Under the pieces are notes generated by a model. That model did not search any database. It saw only the letters and a program-made list of their open reading frames with translations, and was not told where the DNA came from. Below are positions 15,501 to 25,876 of a stretch of 32,471 nt of DNA, piece after piece; position 1 is the first letter of the stretch, and each line of letters starts with the position of its first letter. The position numbers and the translations under genes were made by a program. Source of the stretch: Rhodobacterales bacterium (GTDB lineage Bacteria > Pseudomonadota > Alphaproteobacteria > Rhodobacterales > Rhodobacteraceae); the NCBI GenBank assembly GCA_030950105.1, contig JAUZRV010000074.1, positions 1-32,471 on the forward strand, in the 5' to 3' direction.

Positions 15501-16805
15501 TTAAACAAACCGGTTCACATAATTTTCCAGTATTTCCTGCCTTCCAGACGATGGAACCGGATTAATATTGTCTCGCAGCACCCGTTCAGTGATGCTCTCT
15601 AGGGACGCCCCGGAGAGCATTTCTTGTGCGTCAGGGGTTTTCCAACCGGCATAGCGCGTCGCCTGTGCCGTCGCCAATCCGCCATCCATCATCATAGCAG
15701 CTGCGGCTTTGAACCCGCGCGCGCAAATATCCATGCCGCCAACATGGGCGGCAATCAAATCCACCGGATCAAGCGATTGGCGGCGTAACTTTGCATCAAA
15801 ATTGGTGCCACCGCTGGTAAACCCGCCCGCGTTCAGGATGTGATAATAGGCGAGGGCCACTTCGGGCACATTGTTCGGGAATTGGTCGGTATCCCATCCC
15901 GATTGGTAGTCATTCCGGTTCATATCAATAGATCCAAACACATCGTTGGCAACCGCCACCGCAATTTCATGTTCAAAAGAATGTCCCGCCAATATTGCAT
16001 GACCCTGTTCAAGGTTGAGCTTCACTTCACCTTCAAGCCCATATTTTTGCAGGAAACTATAACAGGTCGCGGCATCATAATCATATTGATGTTTTGAGGG
16101 TTCCTGCGGCTTTGGCTCCATCAGGATCGCGCCTTTAAATCCGATTTTATGTTTGTATTCGAACACCATATTAAGGAACCGGCCCATGTGGTCCATTTCG
16201 GCGCGCATATCGGTATTGAGCAGAGTTTCGTAACCTTCGCGTCCCCCCCAAAGCACATAATTTTCACCACGCAGTTTATGGGTAGCATCCATGCAGGTTT
16301 TAACGGTTGCGGCACTATAGGCAAAAACATCAGGATCGGGATTGGTCGCCGCACCTGCCATAAAGCGGCGATTGGAAAACAGGTTAGCCGTGCCCCAGAG
16401 CAGGCGAGTATCGCAGTTTTCCATTTTGGCGGCAAAATAATCGACGATTTCATTGAGGTTGCGGGTGCTTTCGGCAAAATCGGCCCCTTCGGGGCGCACA
16501 TCGGCATCATGAAAACAGAAAAACGGCGCGCCAAGAATATCAAACATCTCGAACGCCACATCGGCTTTGTGTCGGGCGTGGTCCATCGTGTCGCCAAACC
16601 ACGGGCGTTGGAATGTTTCACCACCAAACGGGTCGGTGCCGGGCCAGGCGAAAGAGTGCCAATAGGCGACGGCAAAACGCAGATGGTCGCGCATCGGTTT
16701 GCCCATGACCATCTCGTCGGCGTTGTAATGTTTGAAGGAAAGGGCAGAGTTGCCGTCCTGGCCTTCATATTCGATCCGCGTAATATCGCCAAAAAAATCG
16801 GTCAT
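15501..16805 (-). CDS. xylA: xylose isomerase
   Basis: 434 aa; '[12 protein letters not shown]', '[17 protein letters not shown]', '[15 protein letters not shown]', '[17 protein letters not shown]'. Confidence 0.95.
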
Positions 16806-16806
16806 A

Positions 16807-18270
16807 TCAGTGTCCTTTTGGGGCCGGATAGGCCGATTTGAAATGTTGGTATTTTGCGTGAAATGGTGCGGTCATTTCCGTTACAGGCAATATGGTTTCG
16901 GCAATTTGCGGAGGCGTGCAGACGTCGTTTGCAGCCGCTTTTGTTGCCGCCATAAGGCCGAGCCGCGCCGCGCCTAGGGCGGCCCCGAAATCGCCGGCAA
17001 CAGGAATATCAACCGGAATATCGAGAATTGTGGCGATGGCTTTAAGCCAGTAACGGGATTGCGCGCCGCCACCCACCGCCAATACCCGTTCGATATTAGT
17101 GCCCGCACGGTGCAAAGCGGCCAAATTGTCGGCAAAGGCAAAGCCGACACCTTCGATAACGGCCCGGGTGAGGCTCTCTCGGGTATCATTATGGGACAGC
17201 CCGAGAAAACTGCCGCGAATTTTTGCGTCGTTGTGCGGGGTGCGTTCCCCGCCGAGGTATGGTAAAAACATTGCGTTTCCGGGGGGGCGCAAACTGTCCC
17301 CCAATGTGGTGGTAAGCGCTTCGGGGGACTTTCCGGTGATTTTCCCATACCATCCCAAAGAGTCCACGGCCGACAGAATAACGCCCATTTGGTGCCAACG
17401 ATCAGGCAGCGCATGGCAAAACGTATGGACCGCACTTTCCGGGTTCGGCAAATATGAATCATTGGCCGCAAAAACAACGCCCGATGTGCCCAATGACAAA
17501 AATGCCTGACCCGCTTTGATCACGCCCATTCCTATCGCCGAGGCGGCATTGTCACCGGCCCCCCCCGCCACGATAATGCCTTTGGGAAGGCCCCAGAGAT
17601 CCGCCAATACATCGCGCAATATTCCGCCTTCTGCGTTGCCCTCGACAAGGGTAGGCATTTGCGCGCGTGTCATTTGGGATGCCCGCAAAAGAGCATCCGA
17701 CCAATCACGGGTCTCCACATTGAGCCAGCTTGTTCCGGCGCTATCCGACATGTCCGAAATCGTTTCGCCCGTCAGCCACAAACGTAAATAATCTTTTGGT
17801 AGCAACACCTTGTTGATATTTTCAAAAATCTCCGGCTCATGGTGTTTCACCCACATGAGTTTTGGAGCGGTAAAACCGGGAAAGACAATATTCCCCGAAA
17901 TTTCTCGAAAACCGGGTTGGGCATCAAGAGCCGCGGCCTCGTCGAAACTTCGGGTATCGTTCCATAAAATACAGGGTCGCAAAGGCTGCCCCATGCGATC
18001 AATCAGTGTCGCACCGTGCATTTGCCCAGAGAGACCGATACCGTGCAAAGCGCCCATTTCGACAGGGAAATCCCGTGTAAGTTGGTTAAAAACCGCCTTG
18101 GCAGCGGTGATCCATCTTTCCGGGTTTTGCTCGGACCAGCCTTCGTTTGGCCGCTCTACCGTTAAAGGCGCGTTGGCAAAGCCGATGTTGCGCCCTTGTG
18201 AGTCGATCAACATCCCTTTGAGGCCGGATGTGCCCAGATCAAGGCCAAGATACACGCTGCGATCCCCCAT
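16807..18270 (-). CDS. xylB: xylulokinase
   Basis: FGGY kinase '[17 protein letters not shown]', '[13 protein letters not shown]', 'GGGAQSRYW'; ATG at 18270 (track start 18321 is TTG). Confidence 0.93.
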
Positions 18271-18323: not shown

Positions 18324-18346
18324 TTTATTTTGATGAGCAAATTAAA
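18324..18346. promoter_or_regulatory. candidate ROK operator site 2: TTTATTTTG-ATGAG-CAAATTAAA
   Basis: 20 of 23 positions identical to the perfect palindrome at 22559-22581; 8 of 9 arm positions complementary; between xylB and the divergent di-heme gene. Confidence 0.6.
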
Positions 18347-19667
18347 TAGATATAGATATTGCGGTTCTGCCGTCCTAATTGTTGCGATTGCGGGCATTTT
18401 ATCATCCCTAGCGAACGCCGGAGATCGGCCAAAATTCCCCCCCGCCAATTTTGCCAACGCGCCGCGGGCAAACGTCGCCCTTGGCCAACTGTTGTTTTAT
18501 GACAAGATCTTAAGCGGCAATCGCAATATTGCCTGCGCGACCTGTCATCACCCAAAATTCGGAACATCGGACGGGGTTTCATTGGCGTTGGGTGAAGGGG
18601 CGACAGGTCTTGGAACCGCGCGTCGTGTTGATCCCGAGGCTGTCCCGGAGCAGCGTGTCGGGCGTAATGCGCCTGCTTTGTTCAATCTCGGGGCCGCAGA
18701 ATTTACGTCGCTGTTTCATGATGGCCGACTTGAACGGGATGCTGGTGGGGCGGGTGGGTTACGCACGCCTCTGGCCGCTGAAATGGCGGAAAAATTCAAC
18801 AATGTTCTATCGGCGCAAGCGATGTTTCCGGTGTTGTCTGGCGATGAAATGGCGGGGCAGTATTCGGAAAATGACGTGTCCAAAGCGGTGCGCAAGGGGC
18901 TTTTGGCACAGACGGGCGGCGCGTGGGATATTATTGCTTTGCGGGTTGATGAAATACCCGAATATCGCAGGGCGTTTGATGGCGCTATCGGAAAGCGGCC
19001 GGTAAAATTCACCGATATCGCCAATATGATTGCCGATTTTATTGCATTTGAATGGCGCGCGGACCAAAGCCCCTTTGACCGCTATTTGGCAGGGGGCACT
19101 TTGTCGGTCGACGCGGCAAAAGGGTTGGATTTGTTTTATGGCAAGGCGGGATGCGCCACCTGTCATGCGGGCCGGTTTCAAACCGATCACGGTTTCCACG
19201 CCATTGCCATGCCGCAAATAGGGCCGGGGAAATCGGCCCGTTTTGAAGGTCACAATCGTGATATCGGAAGGATGCGGGTCACAGGTGATCCTTCGGATAT
19301 ATATCGGTTCCGAACACCGTCGTTGCGCAATATTACGGCCACCGCGCCCTATGGCCATGATGGTGCCTACGCGACGTTGGAGGCGGTGTTGCGCCACCAT
19401 CTTGATCCGGTAAACGCGCTTTATTCTTATGACCGGACGCAGGCAGTTTTACCGGCACTATCGGGTGCACAGGACTGGGCTATTCTTGAGGATGCAAATG
19501 AAATGGCGCGCATTGCACAGGCCAATGAACTTGCGCCAATAGGGTTGGAGGACCACGAAATTAAGGCGTTACTGACATTTTTACAGGCGCTTACGGATGA
19601 TGTTTCTTTGGTCGGGAGAATGGGGGTTCCCAACACCGTGCCAAGTGGCCTGCCCGTATCGGATTGA
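18333..19667 (+). CDS. exported di-heme c-type cytochrome, MauG/MbnH/bacterial CCP family
   Basis: Signal peptide 'CGSAVLIVAIAGILSSLANAGD'; two CxxCH motifs 'IACATCHHPKFG' and 'GCATCHAGRF'; 'FHDGRLERD', 'RFRTPSLRNITATAPYGHDGAYATLEAVLRHH'; start 18333 or 18315. Confidence 0.85.
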   Translation: MSKLNRYRYCGSAVLIVAIAGILSSLANAGDRPKFPPANFANAPRANVALGQLLFYDKILSGNRNIACATCHHPKFGTSDGVSLALGEGATGLGTARRVDPEAVPEQRVGRNAPALFNLGAAEFTSLFHDGRLERDAGGAGGLRTPLAAEMAEKFNNVLSAQAMFPVLSGDEMAGQYSENDVSKAVRKGLLAQTGGAWDIIALRVDEIPEYRRAFDGAIGKRPVKFTDIANMIADFIAFEWRADQSPFDRYLAGGTLSVDAAKGLDLFYGKAGCATCHAGRFQTDHGFHAIAMPQIGPGKSARFEGHNRDIGRMRVTGDPSDIYRFRTPSLRNITATAPYGHDGAYATLEAVLRHHLDPVNALYSYDRTQAVLPALSGAQDWAILEDANEMARIAQANELAPIGLEDHEIKALLTFLQALTDDVSLVGRMGVPNTVPSGLPVSD

Positions 19668-19690
19668 ATTCTGTTAAAAAAATCATTTAA

Positions 19691-21247
19691 TCACAATGGA
19701 TTGATAGCCAATGCTGATGCGTCACGTGATATACGTAATACTTGGTTGGTTGCAACTTTCTGCCAGTGAGAAACAGATTGATCGGGCCAGATCATTCTGA
19801 TTTCGACTGTTTTTGCATCGCCCAACCCAAAGTGGGCAAATGTGGTACTGCCGCTTGCGTGTCCGCCACCGATGGTGATTTCACGCGCCCAAATTTGTTC
19901 TCCATCCCGGACCTCGATCCAGCCGCCAACGACACCCGAATTGGCACCCGTTTGCCGGACATCAAGCAACAGCCAGCGGCCATTTCCATTGGTCACATTT
20001 TGATAAATTTCGATGTTGTCGTTTCGATTTACCACTGCGAGATCAAGGGCACCATCAAGATTGAAATCCACCAGAGCGGCGCCGCGTGAACGCGTCAAAG
20101 TCGCAATTCCCGCCACGAGGCCGTGTTCCTCAAATACGCTATCTGGTCGCTGGATCAACAGATTATTCGGGTCGGCCATCGCGCTGTCGGGCATTTGATC
20201 GACGTTGCCTTTTGCAATGAAAACATCGTCGCGCCCGTCGTTGTCAACGTCGCCAAATTCAATGTGCCAGCCGGTCGAGGGCCGCCCGTCGCCGCCCGTA
20301 TATGGGCGGTGCGCGGTGGATCCACGCCCATAGGCCGCGTCGTGATAGGCGGGTCCGTTTTGGTCGGGATCGCGCATTTGCAACTTTTGATCGCCCATGG
20401 ATGTGAGGAAAATTTCGGGCAACCCATCACCGGAAATATCCCGGCTGGCGATGCCCATGCCCCAAATACTGTAATTCTTCCAACCTTCTTTCGCGGAATA
20501 GAGAAATGGCTCCGGAGTCAGCGCCCATAATTGTTCACCGCCTTCACGCACATAATAATGCCGGTCGTTGCTAATCCGCAAATCTTGGCGGCCTTGGCGA
20601 TTCCAATCGGAAAACAGCATCGAAAGCGGGCAATGCGCGGGCAGCAAAGGCGTTGTTTTATATCCGGTTCGGGTTGGCCGGCTAAGAAAATTTTCGTCAC
20701 AGGCCTCGAACGGGCCTTCGGGGTCATTGCGGTCCACGTAATTGCCAATCGCAAGGGTTGGCCGCTGGTTTTCGCCTTCCCAAGTTGCGGAAAATGCAGT
20801 GGTCCAACGCGCGGATTGATCCAGACCATCCGTCGTAAATTCGGTAAATGAGCAGTCCGCGCCACCTTGCAAAAGTTTGTTTTCACCTACCCGCATCACA
20901 AACAAATCGAGCAGACCATCATTGTCAAAATCAAACGGATATGCGCCGGTCACATTGGTCAAAGCCAGCGGTTTCGGGGTGTCCGAAACAAACATGACCG
21001 CCGCACCACGCGTGTTTGATGTATTGCGCAAGAGCATGGCGGGGGCCTCGCCACCGGCGACAAATAATTCAGGAAAAAAATCACCATCACAATCAAAAGC
21101 GGCAACGCCTCCGCCGACGAAATATTCCCAACCGCCCGTGTATTGATGGGAAAGACCTAAAACCTCCGCCCTGTTTTCAAAGCGTACTTGCGCGTGCAGC
21201 GGGGAAGTGAAGACAACCAACAGGCACGCAAGTGTTCTAAACGACAT
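19691..21247 (-). CDS. exported FG-GAP/VCBS repeat beta-propeller with C-terminal ASPIC/UnbV domain (CRTAC1-like)
   Basis: Signal peptide 'MSFRTLACLLVVFTSPLHAQ'; repeated Ca-type motifs DCDGDFFPE, DFDNDGLLD, DISGDGLPE, DVDNDGRDD, DFNLDGALD; C-terminal 'GWIEVRDGEQIWAREITIGGGHASGSTTFAHFGLGDAKTVEIRMIWPDQ'. Confidence 0.85.
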   Translation of the reverse strand: MSFRTLACLLVVFTSPLHAQVRFENRAEVLGLSHQYTGGWEYFVGGGVAAFDCDGDFFPELFVAGGEAPAMLLRNTSNTRGAAVMFVSDTPKPLALTNVTGAYPFDFDNDGLLDLFVMRVGENKLLQGGADCSFTEFTTDGLDQSARWTTAFSATWEGENQRPTLAIGNYVDRNDPEGPFEACDENFLSRPTRTGYKTTPLLPAHCPLSMLFSDWNRQGRQDLRISNDRHYYVREGGEQLWALTPEPFLYSAKEGWKNYSIWGMGIASRDISGDGLPEIFLTSMGDQKLQMRDPDQNGPAYHDAAYGRGSTAHRPYTGGDGRPSTGWHIEFGDVDNDGRDDVFIAKGNVDQMPDSAMADPNNLLIQRPDSVFEEHGLVAGIATLTRSRGAALVDFNLDGALDLAVVNRNDNIEIYQNVTNGNGRWLLLDVRQTGANSGVVGGWIEVRDGEQIWAREITIGGGHASGSTTFAHFGLGDAKTVEIRMIWPDQSVSHWQKVATNQVLRISRDASALAINPL

Positions 21248-22493
21248 TTTTCTTAACGCCTTGTAGTTCTGTGTTAATTACACCTTCTATGGCATAGGCC
21301 GCGGCGCCCATTGCCCACATATGGTCGCTCCATTTATGGACCCTGACATCAGGCGGAGGGCCGCCAAATTGCACAATAGAGTTTCGCATATCTTCGATAA
21401 CATCAGCGTCATAGAGAAAGTCGTATTGCATGCGATCCCCCGAAAGGATGATCAGTTCAGGGGCGAAAATGTTTATGACATTGGCAAGCCCCAGCGCAAA
21501 CATGCGCCCCGCACGCCGAAATATCGACAGTGCGATCAGATTTCCATCACGGGCTTCGGCAACCAGTTTTTGCATGCGGATTTCGGTGCTGGTGGGGTGG
21601 TGAAATTGTTCGCTTTTAGGGTTGGTCATGATACTGTTTGCCTCGCGAAGCAGCGCATAATCGCCGACATATGCCTCAAGACATCCACGTTGCCCGCACC
21701 GGCATAACGCACCGTCCAGCTGCACTTTTGTATGGCCCAATTCTGCGCCACTGCCGTTGGTGCCACGAATAAGTTTGCCATCAATAACGATGCCCATACC
21801 AACGCCTTGTTCTATGGTAATGACGATAAAATTCCGGGCCGTTTTGCCAAGGCCGAATTGTTGCTCGGCCAGTGTCACCAGATTGGCGTCATTTTCGACA
21901 AACACATTTATACCGAGGGTCGACTGAAGCATATCCCGCAACGGCACGTCCCGCTCGGAAAGTGTCGGGGACCACCGTATGATGCCTTCAAGCGCATCAA
22001 CAATACCCGGCAGGCCGATCCCAACGCCCGACAGGTCAGAGATCGAATAACCATTTTTATCAAGGCCTTGCCACAATGTCGTGCAGATGAAATCACAGGT
22101 TTGTTGGGCGGTCTGCACATCAAACGGTGTGGGAACCGAATATTCGGCAACGCGGGTACCAACAAAATTCACGATGACCAAAGTGGTTGTCTTGCCCGAA
22201 AATTTGATACCTGCCACAAGGTGCGCTGCACCGCGTAACTGTAAATTGACGCGGGGGCGGCCGCGTTTGGTATTGGCATTGGCGGGGCTAAATGCGGGTT
22301 CGGGGGGGATCTCCTCAAGCAGCCCCCTTAGGATCAGGTCGGCCGTAATGCTGGTGACCGTTGCCGGACTTAAACCCGTCGCATTTGCAATATCTATGCG
22401 CGCAACCGGCGCTGAATTCCGGATGGTGGATAGCACTGCCTTTTTGCCTGAGGTGCGGTTGCCGGGCAAAGCCTCAGTCGGGCCATTTATCAT
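21237..22493 (-). CDS. xylR: ROK-family transcriptional regulator (probable xylose regulator, XylR-like)
   Basis: N-terminal wHTH 'VLSTIRNSAPVARIDIANATGLSPATVTSITADL'; ROK motif 'CRCGQRGCLEAYVGD'; ATG at 22493 with AAAGGAA RBS; divergent from xylF. Confidence 0.82.
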   Translation of the reverse strand: MINGPTEALPGNRTSGKKAVLSTIRNSAPVARIDIANATGLSPATVTSITADLILRGLLEEIPPEPAFSPANANTKRGRPRVNLQLRGAAHLVAGIKFSGKTTTLVIVNFVGTRVAEYSVPTPFDVQTAQQTCDFICTTLWQGLDKNGYSISDLSGVGIGLPGIVDALEGIIRWSPTLSERDVPLRDMLQSTLGINVFVENDANLVTLAEQQFGLGKTARNFIVITIEQGVGMGIVIDGKLIRGTNGSGAELGHTKVQLDGALCRCGQRGCLEAYVGDYALLREANSIMTNPKSEQFHHPTSTEIRMQKLVAEARDGNLIALSIFRRAGRMFALGLANVINIFAPELIILSGDRMQYDFLYDADVIEDMRNSIVQFGGPPPDVRVHKWSDHMWAMGAAAYAIEGVINTELQGVKKNVV

Positions 22494-22546
22494 TATTACG
22501 TTCCTTTGGCGTTCGCGGTGTCGAATGGTCAATTCCGGCATGGGGC

Positions 22547-22593
22547 AGTATTGCACTATTTAATTTGATTACCAAATTAAAATACCGCATAGT
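22547..22593. promoter_or_regulatory. divergent ROK/xylF promoter pair with operator site 1 (TTTAATTTG-ATTAC-CAAATTAAA, 22559-22581)
   Basis: Perfect 9-5-9 palindrome; plus strand TTGATT-N17-CATAGT (22565-22593); minus strand TTGGTA-N17-AATACT (22575 to 22547); both -35 elements inside the operator. Confidence 0.65.
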
Positions 22594-22669
22594 TTCTCCA
22601 GACACGCGATTCTGCCCTAATTCAGTGGTCTTGCCGTGCAAAAAACAGTATCTTTGGGAGGATCATAAG

Positions 22670-23695
22670 ATGAAAAAAATAGGATTTATAGCCGCGGCTG
22701 TTTTGGGATTTGGTCTGGCGACTTCCGCTATTGCAAAAGATCAGATCATTGGCGTGAGCTGGTCAAATTTTCAGGAAGAACGTTGGAAAACGGACGAAGC
22801 CGCGATGAAAGCAGCCATAGAAGCCAATGGTGACACCTATATTTCAGCAGACGCACAATCTTCGGCAGCCAAGCAATTGACCGACGTAGAGAGTCTCATT
22901 GCGCAGGGCGCAAATGCGTTGGTGATTTTGTCGGTTGATTCCGGTTCCGTTGGTGCCGCAGTGGATGCCGCTGCAGCAGAGGGAATTCCGGTCATCGGCT
23001 ATGATCGCCTGATCGAAGATGAACGCGCTTTCTATCTTACTTTTGACAACAAAGAAGTCGGGCGGGTCATTGCGCGTTCGATTCTGGCGGCTGTGCCGAT
23101 GGGCAATTATGCGATCATCAAAGGTGACAAAGGTGATCCCAATGCGGCCTTCCTTCTTGAAGGGATGATGGAAGTGATCGGCGCGGATGTCGATGCGGGG
23201 GAAATTAAAATTGTTGGCGAAGCGTTTACCGACGGATGGAAGCCATCCAATGCGCAGAAAAACATGGAGCAAATCCTGACTGCGAATGACAACAAGGTTG
23301 ATGCGGTCCTGTCGGAAAATGACGGCATGGCCGGTGGTGCCATCGCGGCACTTGCCGCACAGGGCATGAACATACCTGTGTCGGGGCAAGATGGTGATCA
23401 CGCGGCTCTTAATCGGGTGGCGCGCGGCACGCAAAACACATCTGTTTGGAAAGATGCACGGGTTCTGGGCGCAGCGGCAGGCAATATTGCGTCGGCATTG
23501 GCAGAGGGCGGCATGATGGAGAGCATCGAAGGCGCGGTAAAATGGTCGGGCGGGGCGAAAGGTGTTGAAATGAACGCCATTTTCCTAGCGCCAACACCGA
23601 TTAGCGCGTCAAATATCAACGTGGTTATTGATGCCGGTCATATCGCAAAAGACAAAGTTTGCGAAGGTGCAATGGCTGGCGTTAACGGCTGCTAG
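22670..23695 (+). CDS. xylF: xylose ABC transporter substrate-binding protein
   Basis: ATG 22670, GGGAGG RBS, signal peptide; 'GVSWSNFQEERWKTDEAAMKAAIE', 'DRLIEDERAFYLTFDNKEVGR' characteristic of XylF. Confidence 0.92.
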   Translation: MKKIGFIAAAVLGFGLATSAIAKDQIIGVSWSNFQEERWKTDEAAMKAAIEANGDTYISADAQSSAAKQLTDVESLIAQGANALVILSVDSGSVGAAVDAAAAEGIPVIGYDRLIEDERAFYLTFDNKEVGRVIARSILAAVPMGNYAIIKGDKGDPNAAFLLEGMMEVIGADVDAGEIKIVGEAFTDGWKPSNAQKNMEQILTANDNKVDAVLSENDGMAGGAIAALAAQGMNIPVSGQDGDHAALNRVARGTQNTSVWKDARVLGAAAGNIASALAEGGMMESIEGAVKWSGGAKGVEMNAIFLAPTPISASNINVVIDAGHIAKDKVCEGAMAGVNGC

Positions 23696-23716
23696 TTCGC
23701 CCTTTGGACAAAAACG

Positions 23717-23742
23717 GTCGCGCCGGTTTTAACTGGCGCGAC
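23717..23742 (+). promoter_or_regulatory. intercistronic stem-loop between xylF and xylH
   Basis: GTCGCGCCGGTTTTAACTGGCGCGAC: 8 G-C-rich pairs plus further pairs; no T-run follows. Confidence 0.6.
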
Positions 23743-23785
23743 ATTTGATGCCCCTTCCCCACATTGCTGTATTCAGGAGAACGAC

Positions 23786-25111
23786 GTGACAAAACCGTCT
23801 TCCACCCGTGGGCCTTCCAAATCCAATGTTGAGGGCCTTTTTCCCCGGTTTTTGCGTGCTACCGAGATCGATGCCCGCCTGCTCGGAATGATCGCGGCAT
23901 TGGTGTTGATCTGGGTCGGGTTTCACTATTATGGAAAAATTGTAAACGGGTATGGCGCTTTTCTAACCCCCCGAAATCTATGGAATCTATCGGTCCAAAC
24001 GGCCTCAATCGCGGTGATGGCGACGGGTATGGTTCTGGTGATTGTAACGCGCCATATTGACCTGTCTGTCGGCTCAATCCTCGGGTTTACCGCGATGTCG
24101 ATGGCGATAATTCAGGTGTGGATTTTACCTGACTTGATTGGTCTCGGGCACCCCATGATTTGGGTGATTGCGGTGGTGTGCGGCCTCGTAATTGGCGCTT
24201 TGATTGGCGCACTTCACGGCTATCTCATCGCGTATTTGGGTATTCCTGCGTTCATCGTCACCCTTGGCGGCCTGTTGGTGTGGCGCGGCGCCGCGTTTTT
24301 ATTGGCGCGAGGGGAAACTATTTCGCCGGTGGATGCAACGTTTTCCAAATTGGGCGGCGGGCCGTATGGCGCGGTTGGGGCCACGACAAGCTGGATCATC
24401 GGGATTGTCGCTTGTGTGGCCGTGTTGTTGATGTTGTGGCAGGGGCGGCGGCAAAGAAAACGCTTTGACTTCCCGTTGCGCCCGCTCTGGGCCGAGGGGT
24501 TTTTGGCGACAGTTGGCTGTGGATTGATTATTGGATTTGTGGTGCTGGTCAATTCCTATCCGTGGCCAAAGGGGATCGTGAAAAAATATGCTGCGGCCAA
24601 TAATATTGACACTCCGATCAACGAGATATTCATAAGCCATGGCTTTGCTATTCCGGTTCTAATCCTGATCGGGGTGGGAATTATCATGACGATCCTGACC
24701 ACCCGCACCCGATTTGGCCGCTATGTTTTTGCGATTGGCGGCAATCCGGACGCTGCCGAATTATCGGGGATCAACACACGTTGGGTGACGCTCAAGGTGT
24801 TCGCCTTGATGGGCACATTATGCGCGCTTGGTGCGGTGATTTCGAGCGCCCGACTGGGATCGGCAACCAACAATTTGGGCACGTTGGATGAACTATATGT
24901 TATTGCGGCAGTGGTGATTGGCGGCACGTCTTTTTCGGGGGGGATCGGCACAATATACGGCGCTATTTTGGGCGCGTTGGTGATGCAGGCGTTGCAAACC
25001 GGAATGATATTGATCGGCTTTGACGCGGCCATTCAACAAATGGTTGTCGGTGCGGTTTTGGTTGCTGCGGTTTGGATTGATACACTTTATCGCCGCCGCT
25101 CGGGTGTTTAG
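23786..25111 (+). CDS. xylH: xylose ABC transporter permease
   Basis: GTG start with AGGAGA RBS; 'VIVTRHIDLSVGSILGF', 'AIGGNPDAAELSGINTRW' CUT2 permease motifs. Confidence 0.9.
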   Translation: MTKPSSTRGPSKSNVEGLFPRFLRATEIDARLLGMIAALVLIWVGFHYYGKIVNGYGAFLTPRNLWNLSVQTASIAVMATGMVLVIVTRHIDLSVGSILGFTAMSMAIIQVWILPDLIGLGHPMIWVIAVVCGLVIGALIGALHGYLIAYLGIPAFIVTLGGLLVWRGAAFLLARGETISPVDATFSKLGGGPYGAVGATTSWIIGIVACVAVLLMLWQGRRQRKRFDFPLRPLWAEGFLATVGCGLIIGFVVLVNSYPWPKGIVKKYAAANNIDTPINEIFISHGFAIPVLILIGVGIIMTILTTRTRFGRYVFAIGGNPDAAELSGINTRWVTLKVFALMGTLCALGAVISSARLGSATNNLGTLDELYVIAAVVIGGTSFSGGIGTIYGAILGALVMQALQTGMILIGFDAAIQQMVVGAVLVAAVWIDTLYRRRSGV

Positions 25112-25117
25112 GAGGGC

Positions 25118-25876
25118 ATGGATATGACAGGCACAACGCCACTCGTTGAGATGAAAAATATTGAATTAGCCTTTGGTGGAATCAAAGCGGTTGATGATGT
25201 GACGGTCGATTTGTTTGCTGGCGAAGTTGTCGGGCTTCTTGGCCACAATGGTGCCGGAAAATCCACTCTTATCAAGATATTATCCGGCGCATATCAGGCC
25301 GACGCAGGTGAAATATATGTGAATGGAGAGTTGGCGACAATCCGCAATCCGCGCGACGCACACTCTTATAATATCGAAACAATATATCAAACGCTGGCGC
25401 TCGCCGACAATCTTGATGCGGCGGCAAACCTGTTTCTGGGGCGCGAAATAGTTACCCGTTTTGGTATGGTCGACGACGACGCGATGGAGGCCGAAACCCG
25501 CAAAATCATGGGGCGGCTCAATCCCAACTTTGTCAAATTTTCTTCCCCCGTGAGCGCGCTTTCGGGCGGGCAACGGCAATCGGTGGCCATCACCCGTGCG
25601 GTTTATTTTAATGCGCGCATCCTGATTATGGACGAACCTACTGCTGCCCTTGGTCCGCAGGAAACCGAAATGGTGGCAGAACTGATCAAGCAACTCAAGT
25701 CGGAGGGCATCGGGATATTCCTCATTAGCCATGACATCCACGACGTTATGGGGTTGTGCGACCGTGTGAGCGTTATGAAAAATGGTCGCTTGGTGGGCAC
25801 CCAGAATGTTGATGATGTAACCGATGATGAAATTTTGGCGATGATCATTCTCGGGAAAAACCCGGAACGGAACTAG
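25118..25876 (+). CDS. xylG: xylose ABC transporter ATP-binding protein (single ATPase domain)
   Basis: '[22 protein letters not shown]', '[35 protein letters not shown]'; 252 aa. Confidence 0.9.

Follow-up and report, generated by a model that had tools for sequence, protein, structure and literature searches.

A di-heme MauG/CCP-superfamily protein and a CRTAC1-like beta-propeller form a conserved, xylose-linked gene pair in Rhodobacteraceae

We analysed a 32,471-nucleotide stretch of DNA (hereafter the window) from a Rhodobacterales bacterium of the family Rhodobacteraceae (contig JAUZRV010000074.1 of GenBank assembly GCA_030950105.1, which is fragmented into 350 contigs). Two convergent genes within it are the subject of this work. 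One encodes an exported di-heme peroxidase-type protein of the MauG/cytochrome c peroxidase (CCP) superfamily (18333..19667, + strand), and the other an exported CRTAC1-like FG-GAP/ASPIC-UnbV beta-propeller protein (19691..21247, − strand). The pair is flanked by xylBA on one side and by a ROK-family regulator gene and xylFHG on the other. A first-pass annotation of the window had placed a secreted protein with two CATCH heme motifs and a convergent secreted propeller at these coordinates. Both open reading frames (ORFs) are open there, and the + strand product carries both CATCH motifs behind a signal-peptide-like N terminus.

Conservation of this pair was surveyed across a sample of 150 Rhodobacteraceae genera. 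The propeller gene occurred in 83/150 genera, xylF in 85/150 and both together in 80/150 (Fisher test, P ~4e−32, relatedness ignored). A di-heme gene was located within 6 kb of the propeller gene in 57/83 propeller-carrying genomes, convergently in 55, and at least six further genomes carried one elsewhere in the assembly (57–64% identity), for which contig ends were partly responsible. The order di-heme > < propeller < ROK, followed by xylFHG, was maintained in nearly all of the first 40-odd neighbourhoods, as exemplified by Phaeobacter inhibens 2.10, with xylBA, often accompanied by an aldose 1-epimerase gene, flanking either side. The divergent orientation of xylBA and the di-heme gene in the window is inverted relative to most relatives, in which xylBA precedes the di-heme gene in the same orientation and the epimerase gene often stands between them. 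Outside Rhodobacteraceae, the propeller gene adjoins xylFHG in three other alphaproteobacterial families (L154, L155 and L159), and one further genome (G341) possesses both the propeller and di-heme genes. The pairing of the two genes thus exceeds chance. Co-occurrence no better than chance was one outcome by which the first-pass annotation would have been refuted; its reading survived this check, and the two genes are a conserved pair with a link to pentose uptake. We found no description of a xylose-linked di-heme/propeller pair in the open-licence papers searched.

The neighbouring genes were consistent with the xylose-locus setting read at first pass. Both xylA (xylose isomerase; 15501..16805, − strand) and xylB (xylulokinase; 16807..18270, − strand) scored above their family cut-offs (TIGR02630, 655 bits against 533; TIGR01312, 556 bits against 380). 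Judging from the sequence of its start region, xylB most likely begins at 18270; the longer ORF is open to 18321 and the TIGR01312 match starts at its residue 25. This start leaves a gap of only ~62 bp to the di-heme gene. Beyond the propeller gene, on the same strand and overlapping it by 11 nt, lies the ROK-family (XylR-like) regulator gene (21237..22556, − strand, exact start provisional), assigned from PF00480 (180 bits) and conserved gene order. The transporter genes follow on the + strand, namely xylF (xylose-binding protein; 22670..23695, start read at the ATG at 22670), xylH (ABC permease; 23786..25111; PF02653, BPD_transp_2) and xylG (ABC ATPase; 25118..25876; PF00005), the last two supported by synteny. 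The TIGR02634 score of xylF (369.6 bits) was slightly below the cut-off of 389.6 bits. In Ruegeria pomeroyi, mutants have established that the xylFGH transporter imports both xylose and glucose (PMC10130141). The window's xylF/xylH (22652–25111) matched those of the distant loci L098, L101, L159 and L169 at 68–85%, more closely than they matched their counterparts at loci whose di-heme and propeller genes are most similar. These two genes make up a co-evolving module of their own, and the transporter genes were probably exchanged.

A palindrome, TTAATTTG-N5-CAAATTAA, was found exactly in the gap between the ROK gene and xylF (22560..22580, no strand assigned; TTAATTTG-ATTAC-CAAATTAA, 0 mismatches). 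A second copy (18325..18345, likewise strandless; TTATTTTG-ATGAG-CAAATTAA) carries one mismatch to TTWATTTG-N5-CAAATTAA, lies ~55 bp before xylB and overlaps the start codon of the di-heme gene. These were the only places in the window matching the palindrome with 0–1 mismatch, and shuffled sequence yielded a mean of 0.95 matches at ≤3 mismatches. In most relatives the xylF-side palindrome is located 50–90 bp before xylF, and a second one is often found ~45 bp before xylB; alternatively, it precedes the di-heme gene or the epimerase gene. A cluster outside Rhodobacteraceae, in which a DHOR-type gene (see below) accompanies the propeller gene and xylFHG, has the palindrome 34 bp before the DHOR gene. 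Both a shared candidate operator and the conserved gene order expected of a xylose (ROK/XylR) regulon were found. With palindromes before xylF and before xylB/di-heme, both genes of the pair probably belong to the ROK (XylR-like) xylose regulon, the palindromes being putative operators.

On profile and motif evidence, the di-heme protein is a member of the MauG/CCP superfamily. It scored 117 bits against PF03150 (CCP_MauG; E = 1.4e−33, cut-off 25.6), possesses two CxxCH motifs and retains a distal Q-x3-P-x5-E, the pattern of peroxide-activating enzymes known from the CCP and MauG literature. Its relatives in the PDB are MbnH (6e1c) and bacterial CCPs. The best curated family was TIGR03981, matched over the full length at 259 bits and below the cut-off of 340, as were the orthologues (235–255 bits). 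Scores against the MbnH (TIGR04039) and MauG (TIGR03791) models were 122 bits (cut-off 362.85) and 106 bits (cut-off 443.85), respectively, and the enzyme lies outside all three families. Q162-x3-P166-x5-E172 and H356 were invariant in a six-row alignment, and H356 was conserved in 98% of 44 di-heme relatives. In MauG-like and MbnH-like relatives the residue aligned with His356 is Tyr ('VVEHY'), and in the MauG-like relative L183 the residue aligned with His129 is the inter-heme Trp ('WDGR'), such that neither the Tyr sixth ligand nor the inter-heme Trp of MauG was found by alignment. The position of the Met sixth ligand in classical CCP is likewise His, and the Phaeobacter counterpart is annotated as a cytochrome c peroxidase. 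An AlphaFold model from the six-sequence alignment was poor (mean pLDDT 45). Given the scores below cut-off and the His residues at the MauG Trp and Tyr positions, a MauG-like mechanism cannot simply be transferred to this enzyme, and the equivalence with MauG/MbnH is not supported in the form drawn by the first-pass annotation.

Di-heme paralogues were also found in other genomic settings. A second clade (L111–L117 and L119; ~7.0–9.7 kb; ~41–46% identity) lies beside TRAP transporter genes, with DctP/DctM/DctQ-type genes adjoining it in 8/10 neighbourhoods. This suggests that MauG-like enzymes have, through these paralogues, a parallel link to periplasmic solute uptake. A third clade (L126:7369-8844 with L126:6710-7330, also L127) is located next to a 206-amino-acid exported protein with no Pfam or NCBIfam match, and also adjoins a homocysteine S-methyltransferase-like gene. 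It is possible that this enzyme and the 206-amino-acid protein are another enzyme–partner pair. A ~50%-identical clade (L121–L125, L129 and L130) stands alone beside trmFO and gluQ-like genes, named from sequence only, in seven genera and has no propeller.

The propeller protein matched FG-GAP_3 (PF13517; 70.6 bits, cut-off 26.9) and UnbV_ASPIC (PF07593; 50.6 bits, cut-off 23.4), and by this domain content it is a CRTAC1-like FG-GAP/ASPIC-UnbV protein. We know of no function for bacterial CRTAC1-like proteins, widespread as they are, nor of any enzyme activity of CRTAC1. The profile match to murine CRTAC1 (9etn) had an E value of 4.7e−17, and a fold match to the same structure (E = 1.8e−15) came from a low-confidence AlphaFold model (six-sequence alignment, mean pLDDT 57). 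A fold match to the aldos-2-ulose dehydratase 4a7k was discounted, as generic propellers score alike. The first-pass annotation had singled out Trp-rich segments and four cysteines. The segments exist and contain the nearly invariant W148, W156, W256 and W262 (W487 is a general ASPIC residue), and the subfamily has exactly four near-invariant Cys (C53, C132, C183 and C206). Propellers with every type of partner (described below) keep C53, C132, W148, W156, Y170, C183, C206, Y231, W256 and W262, as well as M264, M284, W327, H328, M352, H463, H472 and W487. Against generic ASPIC proteins from the same phylum, these positions are largely subfamily-specific, except M264, W327, H472 and W487, which several generic members share. 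Together, the subfamily-specific Cys, His, Met, Tyr and Trp residues resemble an active site or a metal site. The invariant Trp were rejected as marks of MauG substrates, being equally invariant in propellers with other partners.

Where no MauG-type gene is adjacent, another oxidase gene, read in the same direction, usually abuts the propeller gene, and the two overlap by 4 nt in six loci examined. At L149, L154, L156, L159 and L169 this is a DHOR-type di-heme protein (PF06537 in the four scanned; L156 assigned by similarity). At ten loci and L196 it is a vanadium-haloperoxidase-like (VHPO) protein with PAP2/VCPO domains, which retains the K-x6-RP, PSGH and SR-x5-H motifs and whose best PDB match is 4cit (E = 6e−76), the Zobellia vanadium haloperoxidase. 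At these VHPO loci (L143–L148, L150–L152, L163 and L196) the CRTAC1-like gene lies directly downstream of the VHPO-like gene. Among the neighbourhoods compared, neither the DHOR nor the VHPO type was found in any MauG-type locus. Across the 83 propeller genomes, a MauG-type gene was adjacent in 57, a MauG-type or related di-heme gene was elsewhere in nine, 11 had the VHPO type and two the DHOR type, and no partner oxidase was seen in the remaining four. In G008, the propeller gene is separated from the ROK gene by a short-chain dehydrogenase-like gene (L195:2820-3656); no oxidase was visible in the 8 kb read.

This exchange was structured by propeller phylogeny. In a tree of 74 propellers, the VHPO-partnered ones formed one clade (support 100/98), and partner labels required 10 changes compared to 25.8 for shuffled labels. 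Eight positions were fixed differently between MauG- and VHPO-partnered propellers, all within three residues of invariant ones (P ~0.016, with clade structure as a confounder). H230 of the MauG-partnered type, for example, is Glu in VHPO-partnered and Gln in DHOR-type propellers. Generic ASPIC genes in the phylum sample had no peroxidase neighbours, leaving a general ASPIC-UnbV/peroxidase link unsupported. A role of the di-heme protein as a plain cytochrome electron acceptor was downgraded, as a heme-free VHPO-type protein can replace it. The exchange of MauG-, DHOR- and VHPO-type proteins indicates that a putative peroxide-using enzyme usually occupies the slot next to the propeller. Replacement by the DHOR and VHPO types also means that a MauG-specific reaction is not the sole chemistry fitting this slot. 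Because unrelated peroxide-using enzymes replace the di-heme enzyme in some relatives, the propeller and the di-heme enzyme probably work together, in a way not yet described.

Our tentative preference is for a model, possible though short of probable, in which the partner enzyme oxidises the propeller, as maturation or activation, within a xylose-induced redox pair, presumably in the periplasm. Judging from the operator sites and gene order, the ROK repressor would act on two operators to control xylFHG, its own operon with the propeller, and the xylBA/di-heme side. The propeller would be the conserved functional protein and the di-heme enzyme its dedicated peroxide-using partner. The His72 heme would react with H2O2, Gln162/Glu172 being its distal residues; the other heme, probably bis-His (His278/His356), would pass electrons. 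The enzyme may oxidise the propeller once, giving an oxidised residue or a metal site; alternatively, repeated oxidation may keep a redox site active. Peroxidases that activate galactose-oxidase-type propeller enzymes offer an analogy for activation. In other clades, DHOR-type or VHPO-type proteins would take over the same job. Beyond the location, we infer here that the enzyme acts as a peroxidase and that it contacts and oxidises the propeller, as well as any activity towards aldoses. A more specific form, namely a new class of xylose-induced periplasmic propeller enzymes, perhaps aldose oxidases, whose redox site (protein-derived or metal) is assembled or maintained by three evolutionarily interchangeable peroxide-using activators (MauG-type di-heme, DHOR-type di-heme and VHPO type), we regard as unlikely.

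Several observations count against propeller oxidation. About a dozen genomes have di-heme relatives (48–57% identity) and no propeller, several of them at the unrelated trmFO locus. The Trp and Tyr positions of MauG are His in the di-heme enzyme; Y294H MauG no longer makes tryptophan tryptophylquinone (TTQ), which serves as a caution only. Of the 74 propellers in the tree, eight have no recognisable oxidase nearby. VHPO-type pairs are mostly unlinked to xyl genes and lack the operator, although the genomes concerned nonetheless have xylF. Finally, three unrelated enzymes performing the same modification is less parsimonious than three enzymes removing peroxide.

That last point leads to the main rival, in which the propeller would be a periplasmic oxidase in its own right (of aldoses, for example) that releases H2O2, and its partner would just remove this peroxide. 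This is the simplest account of the interchange of MauG-, DHOR- and VHPO-type proteins, and it suits both the invariant His/Tyr/Cys/Met set of the propeller and a locus with an aldose epimerase and xylose/glucose uptake. However, no known oxidase signature was found in the propeller, whose closest solved relative is CRTAC1, and some propellers lack a linked peroxidase; we consider peroxide disposal rather unlikely. If instead the enzyme were an ordinary bacterial CCP that detoxifies periplasmic H2O2 during growth on xylose, the CCP_MauG domain, the retained distal Gln/Glu and the annotation in Phaeobacter would be explained. The conserved association with a single propeller family and with xylose genes, the fact that the best-scoring curated families are MauG-like (TIGR03981, TIGR04039 and TIGR03791) and not canonical CCP, and the lack of Met at the sixth-ligand position make this highly improbable.

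Two further accounts assign the propeller a lesser role or none. The di-heme enzyme may oxidise a small-molecule or outer-membrane substrate, with the propeller as scaffold or substrate-binding subunit. Such an arrangement has a precedent in hydrazine synthase, which joins a MauG-like di-heme subunit and a propeller and whose homologue clusters hold a CRTAC1-family gene (PMC12758564); the putative bis-His second heme and the His replacing the inter-heme Trp resemble its gamma subunit. We find it distinctly unlikely, as VHPO-type partners are structurally unrelated, which makes a conserved scaffold interface unlikely, and the conserved face of the propeller resembles a site more than a scaffold. 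It is similarly improbable that there is no direct partnership and that both are merely xylose-regulon genes co-inherited with the ROK gene through operon and regulon. In mirror-tree analysis the di-heme tree tracked ROK (partial correlation 0.56) as well as the propeller (0.50), and such a correlation cannot distinguish a direct partnership from inheritance in common; moreover, the genes of the MauG-type group are convergent and not co-transcribed, and unlinked in some genomes. Co-inheritance is opposed by the other oxidases, which replace the di-heme gene directly against the propeller, also away from xyl genes, and by generic ASPIC genes, which show no such oxidase neighbours.

The locus ties one CRTAC1-like subfamily to xylose/glucose uptake, a candidate operator and interchangeable peroxide-using enzymes, and names conserved propeller residues for testing. 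Were the propeller oxidised or activated, the few partner proteins known for the MauG superfamily would gain a new fold, and abundant marine bacteria would possibly have a novel redox enzyme acting on sugars. Phaeobacter inhibens, a species with available transposon fitness libraries (PMC9007349), also carries the pair. In its strain DSM 17395 the di-heme gene is located on NC_018291 at 47669–48859, and the propeller gene is expected alongside it, in line with strain 2.10.

Among known systems, MbnH/MbnP and SACCP/MopE are the nearest concept, a MauG-type enzyme with a dedicated partner. Together with CorB/CorA they share with the window an exported MauG-superfamily di-heme enzyme and a neighbouring exported partner with conserved Trp; in MopE, a Trp becomes kynurenine and binds copper (PMC3621798). 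As the first-pass annotation had noted, no MbnP-type gene was recognised beside the di-heme gene, and its neighbour was the CRTAC1-like gene, as in the 57/83 genomes above. MauG, which forms TTQ in methylamine dehydrogenase, belongs to the same superfamily, and the window enzyme retains its distal Q-x3-P-x5-E. It differs in the model score (106 bits against 444), in having His for Trp and Tyr, and in lacking mau genes. The closest curated family, the His-Xaa-Ser system-associated MauG-like TIGR03981, is matched over its full length yet below cut-off. Hxs radical-SAM genes were looked for in the window, though not at related loci, and none was recognised.

Hydrazine synthase also combines a MauG-like di-heme gamma subunit with a propeller. 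The second heme of that subunit is bis-His (PMC12758564, PMC12607021), and His129 of the window enzyme, in place of Trp, resembles it. CRTAC1-family genes were reported in 2025 between hydrazine-synthase-like subunit genes of non-anammox homologues (PMC12758564), which independently hints at an association of MauG-like with CRTAC1-like proteins. However, the window enzyme scored 28 bits against the hydrazine_gamma cut-off of 625, its propeller belongs to another family and there is no alpha subunit. CRTAC1/ASPIC-UnbV proteins share the domain content and fold of the window propeller. The latter belongs to a separate subfamily, marked by four invariant Cys and by Met/His/Tyr/Trp residues that generic members largely lack. 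The haloperoxidase 4cit and DHOR proteins are relatives of the enzymes, of predicted activity, that fill the slot in other clades, whereas neither type lies beside the propeller in this window. In comparison to MbnH/MbnP (122 bits against 363 for MbnH), the partner here is a CRTAC1-like propeller rather than MbnP, and the genes lie under a candidate operator of the xylose-type ROK regulator rather than copper control. The pair is therefore different from both MbnH/MbnP and SACCP/MopE in partner fold, regulation and enzyme subfamily.

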